This document shows positions 42,424 to 52,465 of a stretch of DNA of 64,000 nucleotides, in pieces. The stretch covers positions 1 to 64,000 of the forward strand of contig CACBKA010000001.1 in assembly GCA_902539745.1 (NCBI GenBank). Direction: 5' to 3'. The notes under the pieces are model-generated. The model made no database searches and was not told where the DNA came from. It worked only from the letters and a program-made list of their open reading frames with translations. Position 1 is the first letter of the stretch; the number at the start of each line of letters is the position of its first letter. The position numbers and the translations under genes are program-made. Origin of the DNA: an uncultured Pelagibacteraceae bacterium (lineage in GTDB: Bacteria; Pseudomonadota; Alphaproteobacteria; Pelagibacterales; Pelagibacteraceae).

Positions 42424-43533
42424 ATGAAAAAATTTGAAATTTCAAAAAATAGAAGAGTTAAAATAACCCCATACACCTCCAGATTAGAAAGTTATGGAGT
42501 AGGCGGTTATACTGTTTATAATCACATGTTATTACCAACTTATTTTAAGTCTCTCGAAGATGAATATTTTCATTTAAAAAAAGATGTTCAATTATGGGAC
42601 GTCTCTGTTCAAAAGCAAATTGAAGTTAGCGGTAGTGATTCTAATAAATTAGTTCAACTTATGACCTGCAGGGACCTAAGTGGTGCTAAAGTACTCAAAT
42701 GTTATTACGTTCCTTTGATAGATGGAAATGGTAATATGATCAATGATCCTCTGGTTTTAAAAGTAGAAGATATGAAATGGAGAATTTGTATAGCGGACTC
42801 AGATGTTTTACTTTATGCGAAAGGAATTGCTGACTCAATGAATTTAAATGTAAAAATTCATGAGACAGAAATTTCTACTCTCGCAGTACAAGGACCTAAA
42901 TCGTTAGATGTAATGAAAAAAGTCTTCGGAGATGAGATCGGTAAGCTTAAGTTTTTTAATTTTAATTATTTTAAATTCGAAGACATAGATTTTATGATAT
43001 CAAAATCCGGTTTTTCAAAACAAGGTGGATACGAGATCTACGTTGAAAATTTGAAGTCAGGTCTTAAACTTTATGATTATATTATTAAAGTTGGTAAAAA
43101 ATTCAATTTAAAACCAGGTTGTCCAAATGTTATTGAAAGAATAGAGGGTGCTTTGTTGTCCTATGGTAACGATATGGATAATAATGATAATCCTTTTGAA
43201 TGTGGATTAGATAAATATGTTAATCTAAGTAGCAATATTGAATTTTTAGGAAAAAAAGCATTACAAAAAGCAAAGTCGGAAGGCATTAAAAGAAAACTAA
43301 TGGGTGTAAAAATAAAAGGAAAAAAGATTAATTTAACAAAAGAAATAGAACTGGTTAATGAAAATAAAAAAACTATCGGACATTTAAGATCTGCCGTTTA
43401 TTCACCCAGGTTCAAAATGATAGTCGGTATAGCTATGATCAATCTTGAGCATTGTAATGTCTCTCAAAATTTTAAAATAAATATAAATAACAAAGAAGCA
43501 TCAGGATCAGTCTGTAGTTTACCAATGAACTAA
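42424..43533 (+). CDS. dmdA: Dimethylsulfoniopropionate demethylase DmdA
   Basis: A 369-residue GcvT-fold enzyme, the same length as the characterised Pelagibacter DmdA. It moves a methyl group from DMSP to tetrahydrofolate, giving 3-methylmercaptopropionate. Distinctive DmdA segments are GGYTVYNHMLLPTYF, LWDVSVQKQIEV, MTCRDLSGAKVLKCYYVP, CIADSDVLLYAKGIA, SGFSKQGGYEIYVE, GCPNVIERIEGALLSYGNDMD and NPFECGLDKYV, separating it from glycine-cleavage T protein. It lies in a co-directional set with acyl-CoA ligase and dehydrogenase genes fitting the downstream steps. Confidence 0.92.
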   Translation: MKKFEISKNRRVKITPYTSRLESYGVGGYTVYNHMLLPTYFKSLEDEYFHLKKDVQLWDVSVQKQIEVSGSDSNKLVQLMTCRDLSGAKVLKCYYVPLIDGNGNMINDPLVLKVEDMKWRICIADSDVLLYAKGIADSMNLNVKIHETEISTLAVQGPKSLDVMKKVFGDEIGKLKFFNFNYFKFEDIDFMISKSGFSKQGGYEIYVENLKSGLKLYDYIIKVGKKFNLKPGCPNVIERIEGALLSYGNDMDNNDNPFECGLDKYVNLSSNIEFLGKKALQKAKSEGIKRKLMGVKIKGKKINLTKEIELVNENKKTIGHLRSAVYSPRFKMIVGIAMINLEHCNVSQNFKININNKEASGSVCSLPMN

Positions 43534-43820: not shown

Positions 43821-44825
43821 ATGTGGAGAAGTTTTTTTACCGAAAAGAAATGGATGTTATGGTCATGGGGAGGTGCATTTTTTATTTTTCTATCTTTGCT
43901 TGCTCAAACCTGGATAGATGTTCAAATTAATGAGTGGTACAAAGGTTTCTACGATCTACTTCAAAAAGCAACCGAAAGAGATATATCTGAATTTTATGAT
44001 GGTATTTTCCTATTTATGAAGTTGGCTATCCCATATGTAATGATCTACACGGTCACTAATTATTTTACTAGATTATGGGCTTTTAGATGGCGTGAAGCTA
44101 TGACTTTTTCTTATATGCCGTATTGGAAAAAAGTTGACGCTAAAGTAGAGGGTGCATCACAAAGAATACAAGAAGATTGTATGAATTTTGCCAAAATTGT
44201 TGAAAGTTTAGGTCTGCAGGTTGTTAGAGCAATAATGCTTTTAATAGCATTTATTCCTATTCTGTGGGGGTTATCATCAAACGTTGTAATACCATTTTTT
44301 AAAGATGTTTCCGGTTCTTTAGTTTGGGTTTCACTTACTGCTAGTTTGGGCGGACTAGTAATTAGTTGGTTAGTTGGTATAAAACTGCCAGGTCTTGAAT
44401 ATAATAATCAAAAAGTAGAAGCTGCCTTCAGAAAAGAATTAGTTTATGGTGAAGATGATAGACAAAACTATGTTAAACCACCAACAGTATTAGAGTTATT
44501 TACCGGTATAAAATTCAATTACCACAGACTTTTTTTACATTACGGTTATTTTGATCTTTGGTTGATTATGTACAACCAAACAATGATTATAGTGCCATAC
44601 CTTTTGATGGGACCAGGTTTATTTACAGGTGCTATGACTCTCGGTGTATTAATTCAAACATCTAGTGCTTTTAGAGAAGTTCAAAGTAGTTTTTCTTTGT
44701 TTTTGCAAAATTGGACGAGAATTACTGAACTAAGATCTATATACAAACGTTTAAATGAATTTGAAAAGGCCATAGGTTTTAATAAACCCTTGAGAAAACC
44801 GACTAAATCTGATGTAAGAGCTTAA
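43821..44825 (+). CDS. SbmA/BacA-like membrane transporter
   Basis: A 334-residue membrane protein with about seven helices. WIDVQINEWYKGFYDLLQKATE near the start, FTRLWAFRWREAMTFSYMPYWKK, RIQEDCMNFAKIVESLGLQVVRAIMLL, and VEAAFRKELVYGEDD match the SbmA/BacA family, which imports peptides and thiazole-type compounds without its own ATPase domain. It is somewhat shorter than E. coli SbmA (406). It overlaps the AEC transporter gene by 1 bp. Confidence 0.85.
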   Translation: MWRSFFTEKKWMLWSWGGAFFIFLSLLAQTWIDVQINEWYKGFYDLLQKATERDISEFYDGIFLFMKLAIPYVMIYTVTNYFTRLWAFRWREAMTFSYMPYWKKVDAKVEGASQRIQEDCMNFAKIVESLGLQVVRAIMLLIAFIPILWGLSSNVVIPFFKDVSGSLVWVSLTASLGGLVISWLVGIKLPGLEYNNQKVEAAFRKELVYGEDDRQNYVKPPTVLELFTGIKFNYHRLFLHYGYFDLWLIMYNQTMIIVPYLLMGPGLFTGAMTLGVLIQTSSAFREVQSSFSLFLQNWTRITELRSIYKRLNEFEKAIGFNKPLRKPTKSDVRA

Positions 44826-45724
44826 TGGAGATTTACCTTAAGCTTGTCGATGTATTTTTTCCTGTTTTCCTAGTTATTGGTATTGGGTTTTATTTTGGAA
44901 AAAAAAACCCTAAATTTGACACTGATTTTATTACTAAGTTAACTGGAACATTCGGAACGCCAGCTCTAATATTTTATTCACTTACATCAACCGGCGTTAA
45001 TCTTGAAACCTTTATTGAATTTTTCACTTATAAAATAATTATGGTATCTGGTTTTGCTTTTGTAGGGATCATTACGCTAATTTTAACGAAAAGAGATATT
45101 ATCTATGAATTACCTCCTTTAATTCTTCCAAACAATGGGAATATTGGTTTATCTGTTTGTTTATTTGCTTATGGTAATACAGGTTTTGGTATCGCTGGAG
45201 CTATTGCATCAGTAATAATGCTTTTGCACTTTACTTTGGGTATTTTTCTAGCAAAAAAGAAATTAGATTTTAAAATACTATTTAGAAATGGCCCAATTTA
45301 CGGAATTTTATTTGCTTTTATTTTTTTATATTTTGATTTAAAGGTTCCTACCTTTTTAGAAAACGCTACCCACTTGATATCTTATGCAACTATATTTATG
45401 GTTTTAATGGCTTTAGGAATTGCTCTTACTAAATTAAAAGTATTTTCATTTAAGCTTTCATTAATAAACTCATTTACCAGAATGTTTTTTGGTCCAATTA
45501 TTGGTCTGTTAATCATTTATGCCTTTAATTTGTCTGGGGTAGAGGCTGGTGTAATATTTATTCAAAGTTCTATGCCTAGTGCGATTTTAACCTATTTAGT
45601 GGGCTCTATGTACTCACCTAAAAAGGTCGTTGATAGCATCGCTAGCACTATTTTTGTGTCTACCACCATTTCGTTTTTCACTTTACCTATTGTCGTATTT
45701 TTATCTCTCAAGTATTTCGTTTAA
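44825..45724 (+). CDS. AEC family (auxin efflux carrier-like) transporter
   Basis: A 299-residue protein with about ten membrane helices in a five-plus-five arrangement. FPVFLVIGIGFYFGKK at the start, GTFGTPALIFYSL, LILPNNGNIGLSVCLFAYG and SSMPSAILTYLVG are AEC (Mem_trans) signatures. These carriers move organic acids such as malate or malonate; the substrate is unknown. It is the last gene of the run that starts at tRNA-Pro; a hairpin follows. Confidence 0.88.
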   Translation: MEIYLKLVDVFFPVFLVIGIGFYFGKKNPKFDTDFITKLTGTFGTPALIFYSLTSTGVNLETFIEFFTYKIIMVSGFAFVGIITLILTKRDIIYELPPLILPNNGNIGLSVCLFAYGNTGFGIAGAIASVIMLLHFTLGIFLAKKKLDFKILFRNGPIYGILFAFIFLYFDLKVPTFLENATHLISYATIFMVLMALGIALTKLKVFSFKLSLINSFTRMFFGPIIGLLIIYAFNLSGVEAGVIFIQSSMPSAILTYLVGSMYSPKKVVDSIASTIFVSTTISFFTLPIVVFLSLKYFV

Positions 45725-45738
45725 TTAGTCTATTTTAT

Positions 45739-45757
45739 CTTAAAGTATCACTTTAAG
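45739..45757 (+). terminator. Hairpin after the AEC transporter gene
   Basis: CTTAAAG (45739-45745) and CTTTAAG (45751-45757) form a perfect 7-bp stem with a TATCA loop, 12 bp after the stop codon, followed by TTATTTAATTAT. The stem is AT-rich, so termination would be weak. Confidence 0.4.
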
Positions 45758-46137
45758 TTATTTAATTATATATCTGTTTTTATTGAATAAATTGATATTT
45801 TAGATTTATAATTTATCGCGAAACCAATGGTAATTCATAAAAAATATCATATCTCATGTTGTTTATCTGATAATAAGGTCTTGTACTTAAAAATGGCTTA
45901 AAATAACGCTTTTTAGAGTTTATTATTTAGTAGCTTGCCAGGAAACTATCATTATTGTTAGTGAAATAGGGGAGCAATGCAGTATCAGAATATAGCGTTT
46001 AATGGGCCATATATAGGCCTATTTTTGTGATGTATACATATAGGCTCTAATAGACCGCATAAAACCTATATTTTTATAAAATTACACCCTCAGATTGCAA
46101 AAAACGTTGAAAAATAAGAGTTTTTTGGCCATAAAAC
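45758..46137. other. Long non-coding gap between the DMSP operon and the accessory island
   Basis: About 380 bp without a convincing gene, the longest such stretch in the window. It holds a GGCC-loop-GGCC element at 46004-46018 followed by TATTTTT, repeats of ATATAGGC (46011-46018 and 46039-46046) and a very short ORF at 45977-46030 behind a good Shine-Dalgarno. I cannot recognise a known RNA family, and no tRNA or attachment-site duplication is visible. Confidence 0.5.
45977..46030 (+). CDS. Possible 17-codon micro-ORF
   Basis: ATG at 45977 is preceded by AGGGGAG (45968-45974) at only a few bases' distance, and the frame runs 17 codons (MQYQNIAFNGPYIGLFL) to TGA. The match to the anti-Shine-Dalgarno is better than for most genes here, but length and context give no other support. 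It could be a leader peptide or chance. Confidence 0.15.
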   Translation: MQYQNIAFNGPYIGLFL

Positions 46138-46160
46138 ACCCCTTTTTTAGGGGTTTTTTT
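46138..46160 (+). terminator. Bidirectional rho-independent terminator
   Basis: ACCCCT (46138-46143) pairs with AGGGGT (46149-46154) around a T5 loop, followed by a T7 tract on the plus strand. On the minus strand the same stem is followed by GTTTTAT. It contains the stop codon of the cupin-like gene (TAA at 46147-46149 on the minus strand). Confidence 0.75.
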
Positions 46161-46557
46161 GATAACTTGAGTACTTTTTTGAACCTTTATTGGGACCCAC
46201 AAATATGATTGTCCAGGCTGATTTACCCTTTGGGATCTTTAAACTATGTCTATCTGTGCCCTTTCTATAACCGATATAGCCAGGCCCTCTCCAAAAAGTC
46301 CCGTTTTCCCTTGTTTCCCAATATCCACCCTTAACTACAATAGTCAAATAAGACCAATAATGGTCGTGTAAATCGCCTCTATCACTCTTTAAGATCTGGT
46401 GAATGAAGATATTGAAAGGGAACCATTTAGGTCTTTTACGAAATAAGGGATAGTATCTAACCATAAATGGCTCAGCTTTATCATAATCTGGCCAGCTTGG
46501 ACCTCTGTCCATGACAATTCTTTTTCTAGACTCGAACATCACCTTATATTTAATCAC
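46147..46557 (-). CDS. Cupin-like protein of unknown function
   Basis: A 136-residue protein. RGDLHDHYWSYLTIVVKGGYWE, WRGPGYIGYRKGTDRHSLKI and SAWTIIFVGP fit a jelly-roll/cupin with the HDH...GGY...H pattern seen in uncharacterised phage and bacterial proteins (usual form LHDHPW..S.ILKGGY.E ... HR..L ... WTL...GP). Histidines in HDH and DRHS could bind a metal. Its 3' end lies in a terminator, and it is divergent from the recombinase gene. Its codon use looks less AT-rich than its surroundings, suggesting acquisition. Function unknown. Confidence 0.7.
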   Translation of the reverse strand: MIKYKVMFESRKRIVMDRGPSWPDYDKAEPFMVRYYPLFRKRPKWFPFNIFIHQILKSDRGDLHDHYWSYLTIVVKGGYWETRENGTFWRGPGYIGYRKGTDRHSLKIPKGKSAWTIIFVGPNKGSKKYSSYQKNP

Positions 46558-46584
46558 TTGACTTTAAAAATCATCTATTATATT
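46558..46584 (+). promoter_or_regulatory. Candidate promoter of the recombinase gene
   Basis: TTGACT (46558-46563) and TATATT (46579-46584) are spaced by 15 bp, immediately beside the start of the divergent cupin-like gene and 36 bp before the recombinase ATG. Confidence 0.3.
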
Positions 46585-46620
46585 TGTAGTGATAATTAAT
46601 TGTTATCAATAGTAATAGAT

Positions 46621-47577
46621 ATGAATGAACTAGTTACAGATATAAGAGCTTTACATGAGGAAACTTTAAATAACCTTAAAAGCTCAAAAGCAAGCAATAC
46701 TATAAGAGCTTATAAATCAGATTTTAAGGACTTCGGAGCCTTCTGTGCTAAGCATGGTTTTAAATCATTACCGACAGAACCTAAAATAGTGGCTTTATAT
46801 CTGACTTATCTGTCTGGAAAAGACTCTAAAATGAGTACTTTAAGGCGTAGATTGGTCTCTATAAGCATGATTCATAAACATAAAGGGCATTATCTTGATA
46901 CAAAGCATCCGATAATTATAGAGAACCTAATGGGTATTAAACGTACAAAAGGAAGTATTCAAAGGGGCAAAAAACCCATATTAATCAATCATTTAAAAGC
47001 AATAATTAAAGTAATAGATGAAGATAAAACTAAAGAAATTAAGAAAATTAGAGACAAAACAATCATCTTAACTGGTTTCGGAGGCGGGTTTAGAAGAACA
47101 GAATTAATATCAATAGATTATGAAGATCTGGAGTTTGTACCTGAAGGTTTAAAAATCACTCTTAGAAGATCAAAAACAGACCAATTTGGAGAAGGGATGA
47201 TCAAAGGACTGCCCTACTTCTCAAATAAAGATTATTGCCCTGTATCTTACTTAAAGAAATGGATAGATTTATCACGAATTAAAGAAGGTCCAATTTTTAG
47301 AAGATTTGCAAAAGGATCATCATTAACAAATCACAGGTTAACTGATCAATCAGTAGTTCTAATAATAAAAAGATATTTAGAAATGGCAGGAATAGATAAT
47401 AAAAATTTTTCTGGACATAGTTTAAGATCAGGTTTTGCAACAGTTTCAGCAGAGTCTGGTGCTGATGAGAGAAGTATTATGGCAATGACAGGCCATAAAA
47501 CAACTCAAATGGTTAGAAGATATATTAAAGAAGCGAATTTATTTAAAAATAACGCCTTAAATAAAGTTAAATTATAG
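46621..47577 (+). CDS. Tyrosine-type site-specific recombinase (integrase)
   Basis: A 318-residue recombinase; ATG 46621 is preferred to an in-frame TTG at 46600. The N-terminal SAM-like core-binding domain (about 10-100; SNTIRAYKSDFKDFGAFC) precedes the catalytic domain with Arg in GGGFRRTELISI, Lys in LRRSKTDQ, HSLRSG (HxxR), TGHKT and the nucleophile Tyr in MVRRYIKEA. All catalytic residues are present, so it may be active. It stands alone, without excisionase or phage structural genes. Its 3' end overlaps the convergent fucosyltransferase by 11 bp. Confidence 0.93.
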   Translation: MNELVTDIRALHEETLNNLKSSKASNTIRAYKSDFKDFGAFCAKHGFKSLPTEPKIVALYLTYLSGKDSKMSTLRRRLVSISMIHKHKGHYLDTKHPIIIENLMGIKRTKGSIQRGKKPILINHLKAIIKVIDEDKTKEIKKIRDKTIILTGFGGGFRRTELISIDYEDLEFVPEGLKITLRRSKTDQFGEGMIKGLPYFSNKDYCPVSYLKKWIDLSRIKEGPIFRRFAKGSSLTNHRLTDQSVVLIIKRYLEMAGIDNKNFSGHSLRSGFATVSAESGADERSIMAMTGHKTTQMVRRYIKEANLFKNNALNKVKL

Positions 47578-48475
47578 ACCAGGACTCTGGCCAGAAATCT
47601 TTATTATTTGAAGGATTTAAATTGTCAGAAGGTCTTACACATATTTTATTAGGATTTTGGTTCAACCACGCACCCCACCAATGAAATGATGATGGGCTTA
47701 CAATAAAATGTTTTGCGAAACTGAATAAATAGAAATCATTTATATAGTCATTATTCTGAACAAAAATAAACTTATTTTTATCGAATATTTTATCTAGATC
47801 AGAAAAATTATTAGACCAAATAAAGAATTTTGGATTATCAATTTTATTTTCAAAATATGAGACAGCTCTATTAATATAATTAATAATATCTTCTAGTCTC
47901 ATATCCTTTTTTGGCTCTCTTCCTCTATCATTGAAGTAACTTGGTTCAACAAATCTATCTCTGCGTACATGGATTGAAACTGAATTGCTTTCGCTTAATA
48001 AATTAATAAATTTATTTTTATTGTTAATATAAGAGTTTTTTATTTTGAATTCTTCAATTAATTCAGTCTTAAGATCAAAAAAGTACTTTTCGGATTCAAA
48101 ATATCCTTCAAGATAAACCGTATCAGATAAAGGATAGTCGATTTTTTCGTAATAAGTTTTCTTGTTTGAACCTTTCGGATCGGTCAAAAAAGCTTTGTTT
48201 TTTTGAAATCTATTTAGAGTTTTAATTATTTTTTTATAATTATGAGATATATAATTATCGTATTTATCAGATTTGTCTGCTAAATCCCCTGTTAAATTAA
48301 AAGAATTTAATCCAAAAGCTCTCCCAAAAGTTCTATTTTTAGTTTGGAAAAAACCTGATGTATTATCAATAAATAACTTATAACCAAACCTTTTAGCTAA
48401 AGAAAATGCGTTAGCATACATAAACATTTGATTACCTAACCCAGCAGCTACTTTTACAATAATCTTTTTATCCAT
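47567..48475 (-). CDS. Glycosyltransferase family 11 (alpha-1,2-fucosyltransferase-like)
   Basis: A 302-residue protein. AAGLGNQMFMYANAFSLAKRFGYKLFID is the GT11 N-terminal signature, SIHVRRDRFVE the donor-binding HxRR region and SPSSFHWWGAWLNQNPNKI the C-terminal motif. The usual HxRRGD appears as HVRRDR with the glycine missing, which may affect donor binding. It would add fucose or a related deoxysugar to a surface glycan. It overlaps the GIY-YIG gene by 8 bp. Confidence 0.88.
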   Translation of the reverse strand: MDKKIIVKVAAGLGNQMFMYANAFSLAKRFGYKLFIDNTSGFFQTKNRTFGRAFGLNSFNLTGDLADKSDKYDNYISHNYKKIIKTLNRFQKNKAFLTDPKGSNKKTYYEKIDYPLSDTVYLEGYFESEKYFFDLKTELIEEFKIKNSYINNKNKFINLLSESNSVSIHVRRDRFVEPSYFNDRGREPKKDMRLEDIINYINRAVSYFENKIDNPKFFIWSNNFSDLDKIFDKNKFIFVQNNDYINDFYLFSFAKHFIVSPSSFHWWGAWLNQNPNKICVRPSDNLNPSNNKDFWPESWSII

Positions 48476-48740
48476 AATTTCTTATAAATTTTAATTTAAT
48501 ATCATTTCTTAATTTTCTATTTTTTTTTAAAAAGTATTCGTATTTTAAAGCCCTGCTTTTATCTTTAAAATTTTTTTTATAAATTAATTTCCAATGTCTC
48601 CCTTTTGTACTTTTTGCACCTTTATTTGAATTATGCTGATTTAGTCTATTTTTAATGTTTTTTGCATATCCAACATAAGTTTTATAAAAACCTTTTTTTT
48701 TTGAAATAATCAAATAAACACTATGTGAGCCCGGGCTCAT
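48468..48740 (-). CDS. GIY-YIG nuclease superfamily protein
   Basis: A 90-residue single-domain GIY-YIG protein of the UPF0213/YhbQ type. VYLI at the start and TYVGYA form the GIY/YIG pair, NRLNQHN carries the Arg, and KGAKSTKGRHW plus ALKYEYFLKK carry the conserved Glu. It sits tightly between glycan genes (8-bp overlap and a 0-bp gap), an unusual neighbourhood for a nuclease. A DNA-repair, homing or mobility role cannot be told apart from sequence. Confidence 0.88.
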   Translation of the reverse strand: MSPGSHSVYLIISKKKGFYKTYVGYAKNIKNRLNQHNSNKGAKSTKGRHWKLIYKKNFKDKSRALKYEYFLKKNRKLRNDIKLKFIRNYG

Positions 48741-49868
48741 TTAATAATTGAAATATTTTTTTATTGTCTTAACTACTTTTTCAGCATCACTTAACTTCAT
48801 ATATGGATAAACGGGGAGACTTAAGCATTCTTTAGACCATTTCTCAGATATTGGAAGTCTCTCTTTTTTTACACTACCCCTTAATGCCCCTGCTCTATTA
48901 AGGCTATAAGGATAATGTAATTGGGAACTTATACCATTTTTTTTCAAATACTTTAAAAGCCTGTCTCTATTTTTGACTCTTATAACGTATAAATGCCTAG
49001 ATGATCCCGGTTTAGTTTCTGTAGTTTTAACCTCACTAATAAATTGCAGTTCATCATCATAATACTTTGAAATTTTTCTTCTGTAATCATTATGTTTTTT
49101 TGTATGATTTACTTTTTCAAAAAGAATAGATGCTTGTATGGTGTCCAATCTACTATTTAATCCTTCATATTCATGAACATTTTTTTTGATAGTTCCCAAA
49201 TTTCTTAATATTTTTAATTTTCGGTAAAAATTCATATTATTAGTAGTTATCAATCCACCATCCCCATAAGCACCAAGGTTTTTTGATGGATAAAAACTGT
49301 AGCAAGATAAATCAGCGTAAGAATGATTGAGTTCTTTTTTACAACAGGTTTCTTCTTCTGCTTTACTACAATTATAACAACTGAAGGCAAAATGGGATTG
49401 GGCACTATCCTCTATAATAAAAATTTTTTTACCTACAATTGATCGTAATTTTTTTATATCAACCTTTTGACCATATAAATTCACTGGAATAATAGCTTTA
49501 GTATTTTTGTTAATTTTTTTTTTTATAGACTCCAAAGATATCAATCCTGTGTCAGGATCAATATCAGCAAAACAAATTTTAGTTTTATTTAATGCCAAAC
49601 TTAGACCCGTTGATATATATGACATACCTGGGATTATCACCTCGTGTTTTTTTTTAAGTCCTAAAGCTTTTATAGACAAGATTAAAGCATCTGTACCTGT
49701 TGCACAACCAACTGAATATTTTACTTTAGCTAATTTAGAAAATTTTTTTTCAAATTTTTCTACATTTTTTCCAAGTATAAAGTCTCCTTTTTTAACAGTT
49801 GATAAAAGAGATTTATTAATCTTTGATTGTTCATTTTTAGAAAATGGATTAACGTCAGTAAATTTCAT
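48741..49868 (-). CDS. DegT/DnrJ/EryC1/StrS sugar aminotransferase
   Basis: A 375-residue PLP-dependent aminotransferase making amino sugars for surface glycans. SVGCATGTDALILSIKALGL, EVIIPGMSYISTG, IIEDSAQSHFAF and SFYPSKNLGAYGDGG (PLP lysine) are diagnostic, as is LNSRLDTIQASIL. Between EDSAQSHFAF and ADLSCYSFYPSKN there is an extra cysteine-rich stretch (SCYNCSKAEEETCCKKELNH) absent in WbpE/ArnB-type enzymes. It lies 2 bp downstream of the acetyltransferase gene, suggesting a WbpDE-like pair that makes an acetamido-amino sugar. Confidence 0.92.
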   Translation of the reverse strand: MKFTDVNPFSKNEQSKINKSLLSTVKKGDFILGKNVEKFEKKFSKLAKVKYSVGCATGTDALILSIKALGLKKKHEVIIPGMSYISTGLSLALNKTKICFADIDPDTGLISLESIKKKINKNTKAIIPVNLYGQKVDIKKLRSIVGKKIFIIEDSAQSHFAFSCYNCSKAEEETCCKKELNHSYADLSCYSFYPSKNLGAYGDGGLITTNNMNFYRKLKILRNLGTIKKNVHEYEGLNSRLDTIQASILFEKVNHTKKHNDYRRKISKYYDDELQFISEVKTTETKPGSSRHLYVIRVKNRDRLLKYLKKNGISSQLHYPYSLNRAGALRGSVKKERLPISEKWSKECLSLPVYPYMKLSDAEKVVKTIKKYFNY

Positions 49869-49870
49869 AA

Positions 49871-50329
49871 TTAAATTTTCCTCAAATACTTAGCTGGATT
49901 ACCTGCGTAGATACCTTTTTTTTTAATATTTTTAGTAACTACTGATCCGGCTCCAATAACAGATCCCCTGCAGATATGAACTGGTAAAATTGTTGAATTG
50001 GATCCAATCAGTACATCATCAGCAATTACTGTTTTTTTAAAATATTTTGAGTCTCTATGTATTTTACCTTTTTTAAAATCATCATTTGTAAACATAGTTC
50101 CATGGCCTATAAAACAATTCTTTCCAATTTTTACTTTCTCGCATATAAATGAATGACTTTGTACTCGCGTATTATCACCTATATAAGAATTTTTTTGTAT
50201 TTCGACGAAAGGTCCAATAAAAACGTTTTTACCAAATTTAGAACCATAAATATTTGATGGCTCTATAACAATACAGTTTTTCCCGAATTTTAAATTTTTA
50301 ATCTTAGATTTAATTTTTTTAATTTTCAA
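49871..50329 (-). CDS. Left-handed beta-helix acyltransferase (WbpD-like)
   Basis: A 152-residue hexapeptide-repeat protein: repeated [IV]-G-x-x units through IGPFVEIQKNSYIGDNTRVQSHSFICEKVKIGKNCFIGHGTMFTNDDF, then VLIGSNSTILPVHICRGSVIGAGSVVTKNI and GNPAKYLRKI. The GHGTMFTND segment matches WbpD-type N-acetyltransferases acting on UDP-3-amino sugars. It is upstream of the aminotransferase in the same minus-strand unit and abuts the tandem glycosyltransferase gene. Confidence 0.9.
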   Translation of the reverse strand: MKIKKIKSKIKNLKFGKNCIVIEPSNIYGSKFGKNVFIGPFVEIQKNSYIGDNTRVQSHSFICEKVKIGKNCFIGHGTMFTNDDFKKGKIHRDSKYFKKTVIADDVLIGSNSTILPVHICRGSVIGAGSVVTKNIKKKGIYAGNPAKYLRKI

Positions 50330-52465
50330 TTAATCCATCCATTTTAATTTTTTTGAAATTTCTCTATTGAATGATTTCGAAATAATGTAATTAGCTACTT
50401 TTTGACATTCAAAAAGATCAAAATATTTTCTTCTACCTTTTTTTGCAACATTAATTCTTTTTTCATCATTCGATTTATAAAAGTTTATTTTATTTGCTAA
50501 ATCTTCTAAACCTGAATAAAAAACAACTTCATTTCCATTAAAAAAATTACTTAATTGTGTTCTTTTATCAATAAATGTTAATAAACCGTTTCCTATTAAA
50601 GAAGCAATTCTATTACTCGTTAAATATTTAAGAGGTTTACCTCTTGTTAAATTTAAAGCCATTTTGGAGTTTACTATAACCTTATAAAAATCCTCAGCCC
50701 ATACAGGCTCTCTATTATTATATCCGTATATGTCAAAAATTATATTAGGACATTCCGTAATTAGGTCAGTAATAAAATTATGCCTTTCATCCTGTTTATC
50801 TCTTTTCAATTTACCTCTATTGACCCCGTGACTCATTGAGAAAAAAACATCGTTTATTTGATTGTTATTTTCATAAATTTTTAATTTTTCAATATTTTTG
50901 TCAACTGGAATTGGAAGATAATGAAAGTTTTTTTTCTTTCTCAAAAAATCTAATGTAGACGGATGCGTTGTAATGAAATTTGATGTAACAAAATTATCAT
51001 ATTTTAGTAATTTTTTTCTGTTAGAAGCAAAATCAGGACCTGTATCAGCAAGATGATCCTCAAACCATTGTGAAATAACTGTTTTTTTACTTAAATCTTT
51101 AATTTTTTCGAGTGTATCATTCTCAATGTCATAAGAGTGGCCTAGTAAAATTAAATCAGGTTTATAATTTTTGGCTGTTTCATATATCATCGTATTTAAA
51201 TAACTTGTTCCCTTAAAGTCTCTTAAAGATTTATTGAATTTTCCGACATCCCTATCGCTTAAATTAATTACATCGTGACCATTTCTTATAAAACCATTTG
51301 CTAATTTCTTAGCGATTGAAATGTAATATAGTCTATTAAACTGACGATTACCAAAATTTGAAATATTTAATATTTTTAAATTTGATATATTTCGATTAAT
51401 AAATATATTTTTTTCATTTATTATCTCTCCACGTAAATTGTCAAATATTTTTGTATTTTTTTTTATATCATGAAAAACGTAGCTAATTGATTTTTTTTGT
51501 AGATCCTCTCTTAACTTTTTATTTACAATTAATTGTTTTATTTTTTTATAAATTTCATTTTGATTAATTTTGTTAAGATACAAACCGTATGGAATAGTCT
51601 CTGGAAGACCTCCTTTTTTTGAAATAATTGTAGCACAGCCTCTAGATGCCGCTTCTAATGATGTACGCCCAAATGGTTCTTCCCAGTGTGAGGGAACGAC
51701 AGAAATACTAGATTTTTTGTAAATCTGTAAAGTTTCATCATGAGTAATCCATCCCAAATGAATTAGTCTATCATGTTTAAAATTGTACTTTTCTCTAGGC
51801 TCATCTCCTATGACAATACTTTTCCAATCTTTGTATTTTTTTAATATTCTAATTATTGCACGACCAAAGGTGTCATATCCCTTTGAGTGATTTAATTTAC
51901 CAACAAAAGTAATAATTTTTTCTTTTTTGGGCATTTTAGAAATTTTATTAATAGCTGGATATAAAACTTGTGTTTTTTCGTGATTTTTAATGTCTAAACC
52001 TTCAAAAAATTTTTCTTTAACCCAATTGCTTACAAATGTAATTTTGCTACACAATTTTATAAGATGTTTTCTCTCTTTTGGTGTAACAGCACCTCGAAGT
52101 GTTTGCGGATTATTGTGAATTACTAATATATACTTTTGATTTGGTAAATTCTTTTCGATATGAAGAATGTAAGAAGGTCTATTATGAATTTCTATAAGAG
52201 AAAATTTTTTTTTATTTAATACGTCGATGAATTTATTAACGTATTTTAAGTTTTTACTTTGAACTCCAAAATTTGAAAATTTTAGGTTTACATAATTAAA
52301 ATTATCAAAAGTTTTACTTACGTTTGATGTATAACCAAAAATGGTCGTGTTTTTTTTTAACTTACTATCTTTTGAAAAATCTTTAACCCAAATAGATGCT
52401 GACCCAGCATTATCTTTGATGAATTGGTCTTTATAAGGTAGTAAAACAGCAATATTATTCTGCAT
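50330..52465 (-). CDS. Tandem glycosyltransferase (GT4 domain plus CgeB-like C-terminal domain)
   Basis: A 711-residue fusion. Residues ~1-345 form a GT-B glycosyltransferase of family 4: VGKLNHSKGYDTFGRAI, VIGDEPREKY, RLIHLGWITHDETLQIY and VPSHWEEPFGRTSLEAASRGCATIISKKGGLPETI (the EX7E motif). Residues ~370-711 form a second glycosyltransferase-like domain resembling CgeB/DUF3880: ILLGHSYDIEN, FEDHLADTGPDF, NLTRGKPLKYLTSNRIASLIGNGLLTFIDKRTQL. The two active sites may add consecutive sugars. No signal peptide or membrane helix is seen. It is the first gene of the glycan unit and lies 5 bp from the aldolase gene. Confidence 0.88.
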   Translation of the reverse strand: MQNNIAVLLPYKDQFIKDNAGSASIWVKDFSKDSKLKKNTTIFGYTSNVSKTFDNFNYVNLKFSNFGVQSKNLKYVNKFIDVLNKKKFSLIEIHNRPSYILHIEKNLPNQKYILVIHNNPQTLRGAVTPKERKHLIKLCSKITFVSNWVKEKFFEGLDIKNHEKTQVLYPAINKISKMPKKEKIITFVGKLNHSKGYDTFGRAIIRILKKYKDWKSIVIGDEPREKYNFKHDRLIHLGWITHDETLQIYKKSSISVVPSHWEEPFGRTSLEAASRGCATIISKKGGLPETIPYGLYLNKINQNEIYKKIKQLIVNKKLREDLQKKSISYVFHDIKKNTKIFDNLRGEIINEKNIFINRNISNLKILNISNFGNRQFNRLYYISIAKKLANGFIRNGHDVINLSDRDVGKFNKSLRDFKGTSYLNTMIYETAKNYKPDLILLGHSYDIENDTLEKIKDLSKKTVISQWFEDHLADTGPDFASNRKKLLKYDNFVTSNFITTHPSTLDFLRKKKNFHYLPIPVDKNIEKLKIYENNNQINDVFFSMSHGVNRGKLKRDKQDERHNFITDLITECPNIIFDIYGYNNREPVWAEDFYKVIVNSKMALNLTRGKPLKYLTSNRIASLIGNGLLTFIDKRTQLSNFFNGNEVVFYSGLEDLANKINFYKSNDEKRINVAKKGRRKYFDLFECQKVANYIISKSFNREISKKLKWMD

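Follow-up and report, generated by a model that had tools for sequence, protein, structure and literature searches.

A tyrosine recombinase gene of Pelagibacteraceae (SAR11) and the palindrome immediately upstream of it very probably make up a single-recombinase, Cre/lox-like module for chromosome dimer resolution, that is, a dif/Xer system, at the replication terminus. We read the sequences in this way because the tyrosine recombinase is single, the inverted-repeat site at the terminus is unique, XerC and XerD were not found, and FtsK_gamma is present.

The window, i.e. the whole 64,000-nucleotide stretch of DNA analysed, contains all the open frames that a sequence-only reading had named, with correct coordinates as judged from the ORF listing and Pfam (Table 1), and the gap picked out by that reading is the longest non-coding stretch between called ORFs in the window. 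Pfam matches comprise Mem_trans, Phage_integrase with a SAM-like N domain, Glyco_transf_11, GIY-YIG, DegT, hexapeptide transferase, tandem glycosyltransferase and HpcH_HpaI. The DMSP operon placed at the border of the block has as its sole basis a GCV_T (dmdA-like) protein at 42424-43533 (Pfam). An Rfam search of the whole window returned tRNAs only, and the gap (45725-46146) gave no match. This gap contains a conserved non-coding block at about 45975-46025, around GAATATAGCG (45988), which a search with 1 mismatch allowed found as a single copy in each of 49 of 118 family genomes and which sits about 0.45-1.1 kb upstream of the palindromic site in the genomes compared.

Table 1. Features of the window around the recombinase gene.
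Feature	Coordinates	Strand	Remarks
AEC transporter	44825-45724	+	Pfam Mem_trans
Longest non-coding gap	45725-46146	.	422 bp; next longest between called ORFs, 205 bp
Cupin-like gene	46147-46557	-	divergent from recombinase
Palindromic recombination site (dif/lox-like, class A; putative)	46582-46616	+	14-bp arms, 7-bp spacer TTAATTG
Tyrosine recombinase	ORF listed 46600-47577, likely 46621-47577	+	PF00589 + PF02899, 318 aa
Variable surface-glycan island, five genes	47567-52465	-	GT11, GIY-YIG, DegT aminotransferase, hexapeptide transferase, tandem glycosyltransferase
HpcH/HpaI aldolase	next after glycan island		Pfam HpcH_HpaI

The listed start of the recombinase, a TTG at 46600, falls within the palindromic site and is for this reason likely wrong; the ATG at 46621 is the likely start. 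By sequence, an archaeal Xer and Cre rank first; the structures nearest to its predicted model (mean pLDDT 83, pTM 0.62) are Cre, at a TM-score of about 0.7, and then XerH. R158, K185, H266, R269, H292 and Y301, which we take to be the catalytic set, are invariant across 40 recombinase sequences. Scores fell far short of the cut-offs for the XerD equivalog TIGR02225 (77.1 bits; cut-off 329.6), the XerC equivalog TIGR02224 (63.2; 335.15) and the XerS model (only 41.6; 267), and neither XerC nor XerD was found in the recombinase's family (Pelagibacteraceae/SAR11).

The recombinase was found in 63 of 90 family genomes, at 54-100% identity, and in all ten of the single-contig genomes listed; among named genomes, the best 80 matches all belong to Pelagibacteraceae. 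One match per genome is the rule (61 genomes), G060 having two pieces on different contigs and G059 an extra short fragment. No match was obtained in the other 27 of the 90; high-completeness ones among them such as G041 (99%) and G047 (96%), both multi-contig, yielded neither recombinase, core site nor PF00589 protein, possibly as a result of assembly gaps. The number of PF00589 proteins per genome is exactly one in 34 of 55 family genomes, none in 16 and more than one in five, where the extra copies are open frames of 344-491 aa. The 36 sister-family genomes carry two (27 genomes), one (8) or three (1). Locus comparisons below are based on 61 loci, those of the 63 recombinase-bearing genomes minus G040 (contig edge) and G060 (split). 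At one of them, L053 (G075), the orientation of the recombinase relative to the AEC and glycan genes is opposite to that at other loci, as if a segment had been inverted.

A palindrome lies directly before the recombinase start codon in 61/61 loci. It is of two classes: class A (37 loci, the window among them, where the arms match each other at 11/14 positions) has arms near ATTACTAAYGATAA and TTATCAATAGTAAT, and class B (24 loci) has arms TTCCGATAA and TTATCGGAA. The spacer of both classes is 7 bp long and asymmetric, usually TTAATTG or TTAATGG. Of 197 family genomes, 146 carry a single copy of the site's core (69 of the 77 of high quality) and none carries two; a reversed-core control gave 2 matches. 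Each of the 80 named Pelagibacteraceae loci has one class-A site, with the core 27-30 bp before the recombinase start codon, a distance set by hand from the match positions for the 2 truncated loci. In 28 of the 61 loci a homologue of the divergent cupin-like gene recurs as neighbour of the recombinase, immediately upstream of the site; the cupin-like protein itself has no Pfam match, resembles phrog_4786 'cysteine dioxygenase' (E 1.7e-23), and has distant relatives in phages of other hosts.

On a maximum-likelihood tree of the recombinases (61 SAR11 and 6 viral sequences, by a quick tree method, with the viral rows as long branches) site class switches only once, as against shuffled means of about 20-22, indicating that site and enzyme co-evolve; genus labels on the same tree need 17 changes. 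Both site classes are found within one genus, and certain recombinases group with the alleles of other genera—those of G057 (g7) and G072 (g9) with genus g3, that of G076 (g4) with genus g7. Enzyme and site therefore appear to move together.

The position of the module was examined by GC skew. In the window, cumulative skew peaks at about 46-48 kb, and both GC skew and coding strand switch at the recombinase, over the full 174 kb of the window's contig and in samples taken along two complete genomes. Where at least 7 kb was available on both sides (16 of the 61 loci being left out), skew changes from positive to negative at 40 of 45 loci, compared with 7 of 39 control stretches. Such a flip of skew and strand is the signature of a replication terminus. 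Flanking genes vary between genera and the recombinase remains at the skew switch. FtsK_gamma is encoded in 28 of 37 family genomes, that of the window included, and KOPS-like polarity runs in the right direction, on motif counts too small to carry weight. Thus one Xer-type recombinase, a unique terminus site, linkage of site to gene and FtsK gamma, the features by which single-recombinase dif/Xer systems are recognised, are all present.

In operation, each site would have its two inverted arms occupied by recombinase protomers. When a chromosome dimer forms, its two sites would pair and strand exchange over the 7-bp spacer would resolve it, perhaps with the assistance of FtsK through the gamma domain encoded in these genomes. 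Autorepression by the enzyme is also possible, since the site lies between a promoter-like sequence, recognised by eye, and the start codon.

Copies of the site are found in viruses. Complete sites were matched in 29 viral contigs, of which 26 have class B with spacer TTWATNG and 3 have class A; none of these 29 encodes a relative of the recombinase. With the spacer left free, class-B arms were found in at least 120 viral contigs and class-A arms in 36, compared with 3 for a scrambled palindrome of the same composition (one palindrome only); contigs with the 17-base core alone were considered too loose and excluded from the evidence. An HTVC010P-like terminase is encoded in 84 of the 161 viral contigs analysed; in 76 of the 84 it follows 213-553 bp downstream of the site. 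Protein families place terminase and portal on two viral contigs, with capsid on one of these, and the nearest isolates to the site-bearing contigs are pelagiphages of HTVC106P and HTVC010P type. In a test specific to the arms, four of 12 isolate records (HTVC106P, HTVC100P, HTVC035P and Greip) have the site with no more than 2 arm mismatches, and a fifth, HTVC024P, has one better than its own shuffles; in the other seven, HTVC010P included, it was not clearly better than shuffles. Seven of the 12 phage records are partial stretches, so that sites beyond the stretches examined would escape notice. In a generic palindrome test of the phage gaps, most did not surpass their shuffles, HTVC010P and Greip being the exceptions.

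The two classes may also stand in tandem: of 63 class-B contigs, 13 have a class-A second site no more than 75 bp away (up to 4 of 28 mismatches; shuffled minimum 8), a class-B second site within 75 bp in 10 of 18 class-A contigs (up to 3 of 18 mismatches; shuffled minimum 5), and 6 viral contigs have exact arms of both. Most viral spacers are TTAAACG, TTAATCG or TTAAATG, as against TTAATGG or TTAATTG in the host.

The phage copies have two candidate roles. P1 phage uses Cre/loxP to circularise its genome or resolve multimers, and pelagiphages could employ the host enzyme on their own genomes to the same ends; this we consider plausible, if somewhat less than even in probability. Variation of spacers between phages would matter little if each phage recombines only with itself, and the fixed place of the site upstream of the terminase and the tandem arrangement of both classes also favour such use; the lack of a recognisable site in seven of the 12 isolate records counts against it, since the function would then be dispensable or the site diverged. 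The copies could instead be attP sites, by which pelagiphages lacking an integrase would integrate at the host site through the host enzyme, as IMEX in the manner of LME-1. The absence of recombinase relatives from all 29 full-site contigs fits this idea, as does the case of Legionellales, in which IMEX at dif led to XerL (PMC9765430), but it appears less likely given that most viral spacers differ from those of the host and that, in the 5 of 297 family genomes with an HTVC010P-like terminase, none is at the host site and no site-like sequence was found in the stretches that hold them; nor was a prophage seen at that site. It is because phage spacers mostly differ and terminases sit away from the host site that we lean towards own-genome use. 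HTVC010P-like, prophage-like stretches joined to SAR11 genes do occur, as L398-L401 (G190 C1), L403-L404 (G346 C12) and L405-L407 (G089 C7), away from the recombinase and with no site-like sequence.

A further 15 viral contigs carry the same arms, in most cases around a different spacer, together with genes for related integrases, the site being within 411 bp of the integrase 5' end in 13 of them. That contigs with the same arms encode related integrases suggests that the SAR11 enzyme was recruited from an integrase family of this kind. Ten contigs (L281, L288, L290, L297, L307, L308, L309, L334, L341 and L342), with integrases 29-42% identical to the SAR11 enzyme, carry TTCCGATAA..TTATCGGAA arms with other spacers within 40 bp of the 5' end of the open frame, and possibly represent an integrase family in which the site abuts the gene. 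These arrangements bear on a different view of the module: the SAR11 protein could be a domesticated or selfish integrase and the palindrome only its operator, the terminus being a tolerated insertion spot and dimers being resolved otherwise. The place of the palindrome between promoter-like sequence and start codon is as expected of an operator, and in viral contigs, too, genes for related integrases are immediately preceded by these arms. Nevertheless we consider this view improbable, in that the protein persists as the only tyrosine recombinase, the spacer is conserved and asymmetric, and viral copies of the site lie upstream of terminase on contigs with no recombinase gene.

The sequence-only reading saw in the neighbouring glycan genes a variable surface-glycan region whose exchange the recombinase may mediate. 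Variability of the minus-strand glycan genes was borne out: closed islands (48 of 60 loci; 12 not closed) contain 0-8 ORFs, the downstream neighbour differs between loci, and within the window's genus the island is common to some genomes and not to others; homologues of the tandem glycosyltransferase are present in 38 closed islands, of GIY-YIG in 34 and of GT11 in 11. A part of the recombinase in moving the cassette was not: that it exchanges surface-glycan genes by site-specific recombination is very improbable, for although it adjoins an island that varies in content even inside one genus, the family widely carries it as a single copy, its sole site lies upstream of the gene with no second copy at the island's far end, the search for short direct repeats bounding the block gave imperfect, mostly AT-rich pairs only, and it stays at the terminus skew switch whatever its neighbours. 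The recombinase is thus probably not a cassette exchanger, and we regard the island as a variable neighbour of the module at the terminus, not, as far as seen, its cargo. Identity of the recombinase with the HVR2 integrase SAR11_0551 of HTCC1062 (PMC2217521) is argued against by the lack of rRNA around the site, in a scan of stretches around the site in a 1,308,759-bp genome presumed to be HTCC1062, with about 930-968 and 1028-1070 kb left out.

Several known systems resemble the SAR11 module. P1 Cre/loxP has the closest fold, as judged from the predicted model, and shares the single enzyme, near-symmetric long arms and asymmetric spacer; the SAR11 site differs in lying at a chromosomal terminus instead of on a plasmid-prophage and in its arms and spacer length (loxP has a 13-8-13 layout), and the proteins are 17-19% identical; we describe the predicted fold as Cre-like and make no claim of Cre-family membership by sequence. 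The dif site, too, has inverted arms; the SAR11 module is like XerCD/dif in having such a site at the terminus and FtsK_gamma, and unlike it in using one enzyme, not two, with scores below the XerC and XerD cut-offs. Modules of one enzyme whose site neighbours the gene have been described, with difSL immediately adjacent and difH near (PMC5357621): XerS/difSL and XerH/difH likewise combine one recombinase with a site adjoining or near its gene, but the SAR11 spacer is 7 bp as against 11 bp in difSL and 6-8 bp in usual dif sites, we noted no site sequence shared with difSL or difH, and the XerS model score is far below cut-off. XerL/dif of Legionellales (PMC9765430) has one recombinase, from a lineage that had been considered devoid of dif/Xer, and its dif is the target of IMEX, LME-1 in Legionella; the SAR11 module resembles it in the lone recombinase, the terminus site and possible use by a mobile element, and differs in belonging to another lineage, in having the site abut the gene, in its two co-evolving classes and in being a computational prediction.

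For SAR11 itself, Carnoy and Roten 2009 stated that Pelagibacter ubique is without a dif/Xer system and read the absence as an indication that streamlining of a genome can eliminate the system; they also saw no evidence of Cre/lox-like replacements in such proteobacteria (PMC2731167). Apart from this statement of absence we found no dif/Xer report for SAR11 in the open-access literature, and no report there of Xer sites in pelagiphages.

It is conceivable, though we hold the idea to be doubtful, that SAR11 keeps two incompatible specificity classes of Cre-like dimer-resolution module, with enzyme and site swapped jointly between genera, because abundant integrase-less pelagiphages use copies of the site to parasitise the host enzyme. 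If so, a phage bearing tandem sites of class A and class B could exploit hosts of both kinds, and viruses would be engaged in an arms race with a system essential for chromosome maintenance. The module also supplies a candidate reason for the conserved element beside the terminase of HTVC010P-like phages. With it, a bacterial group that ranks among the most abundant in the ocean has a concrete candidate for enzyme and site, and whether it possesses dif/Xer becomes a testable question.
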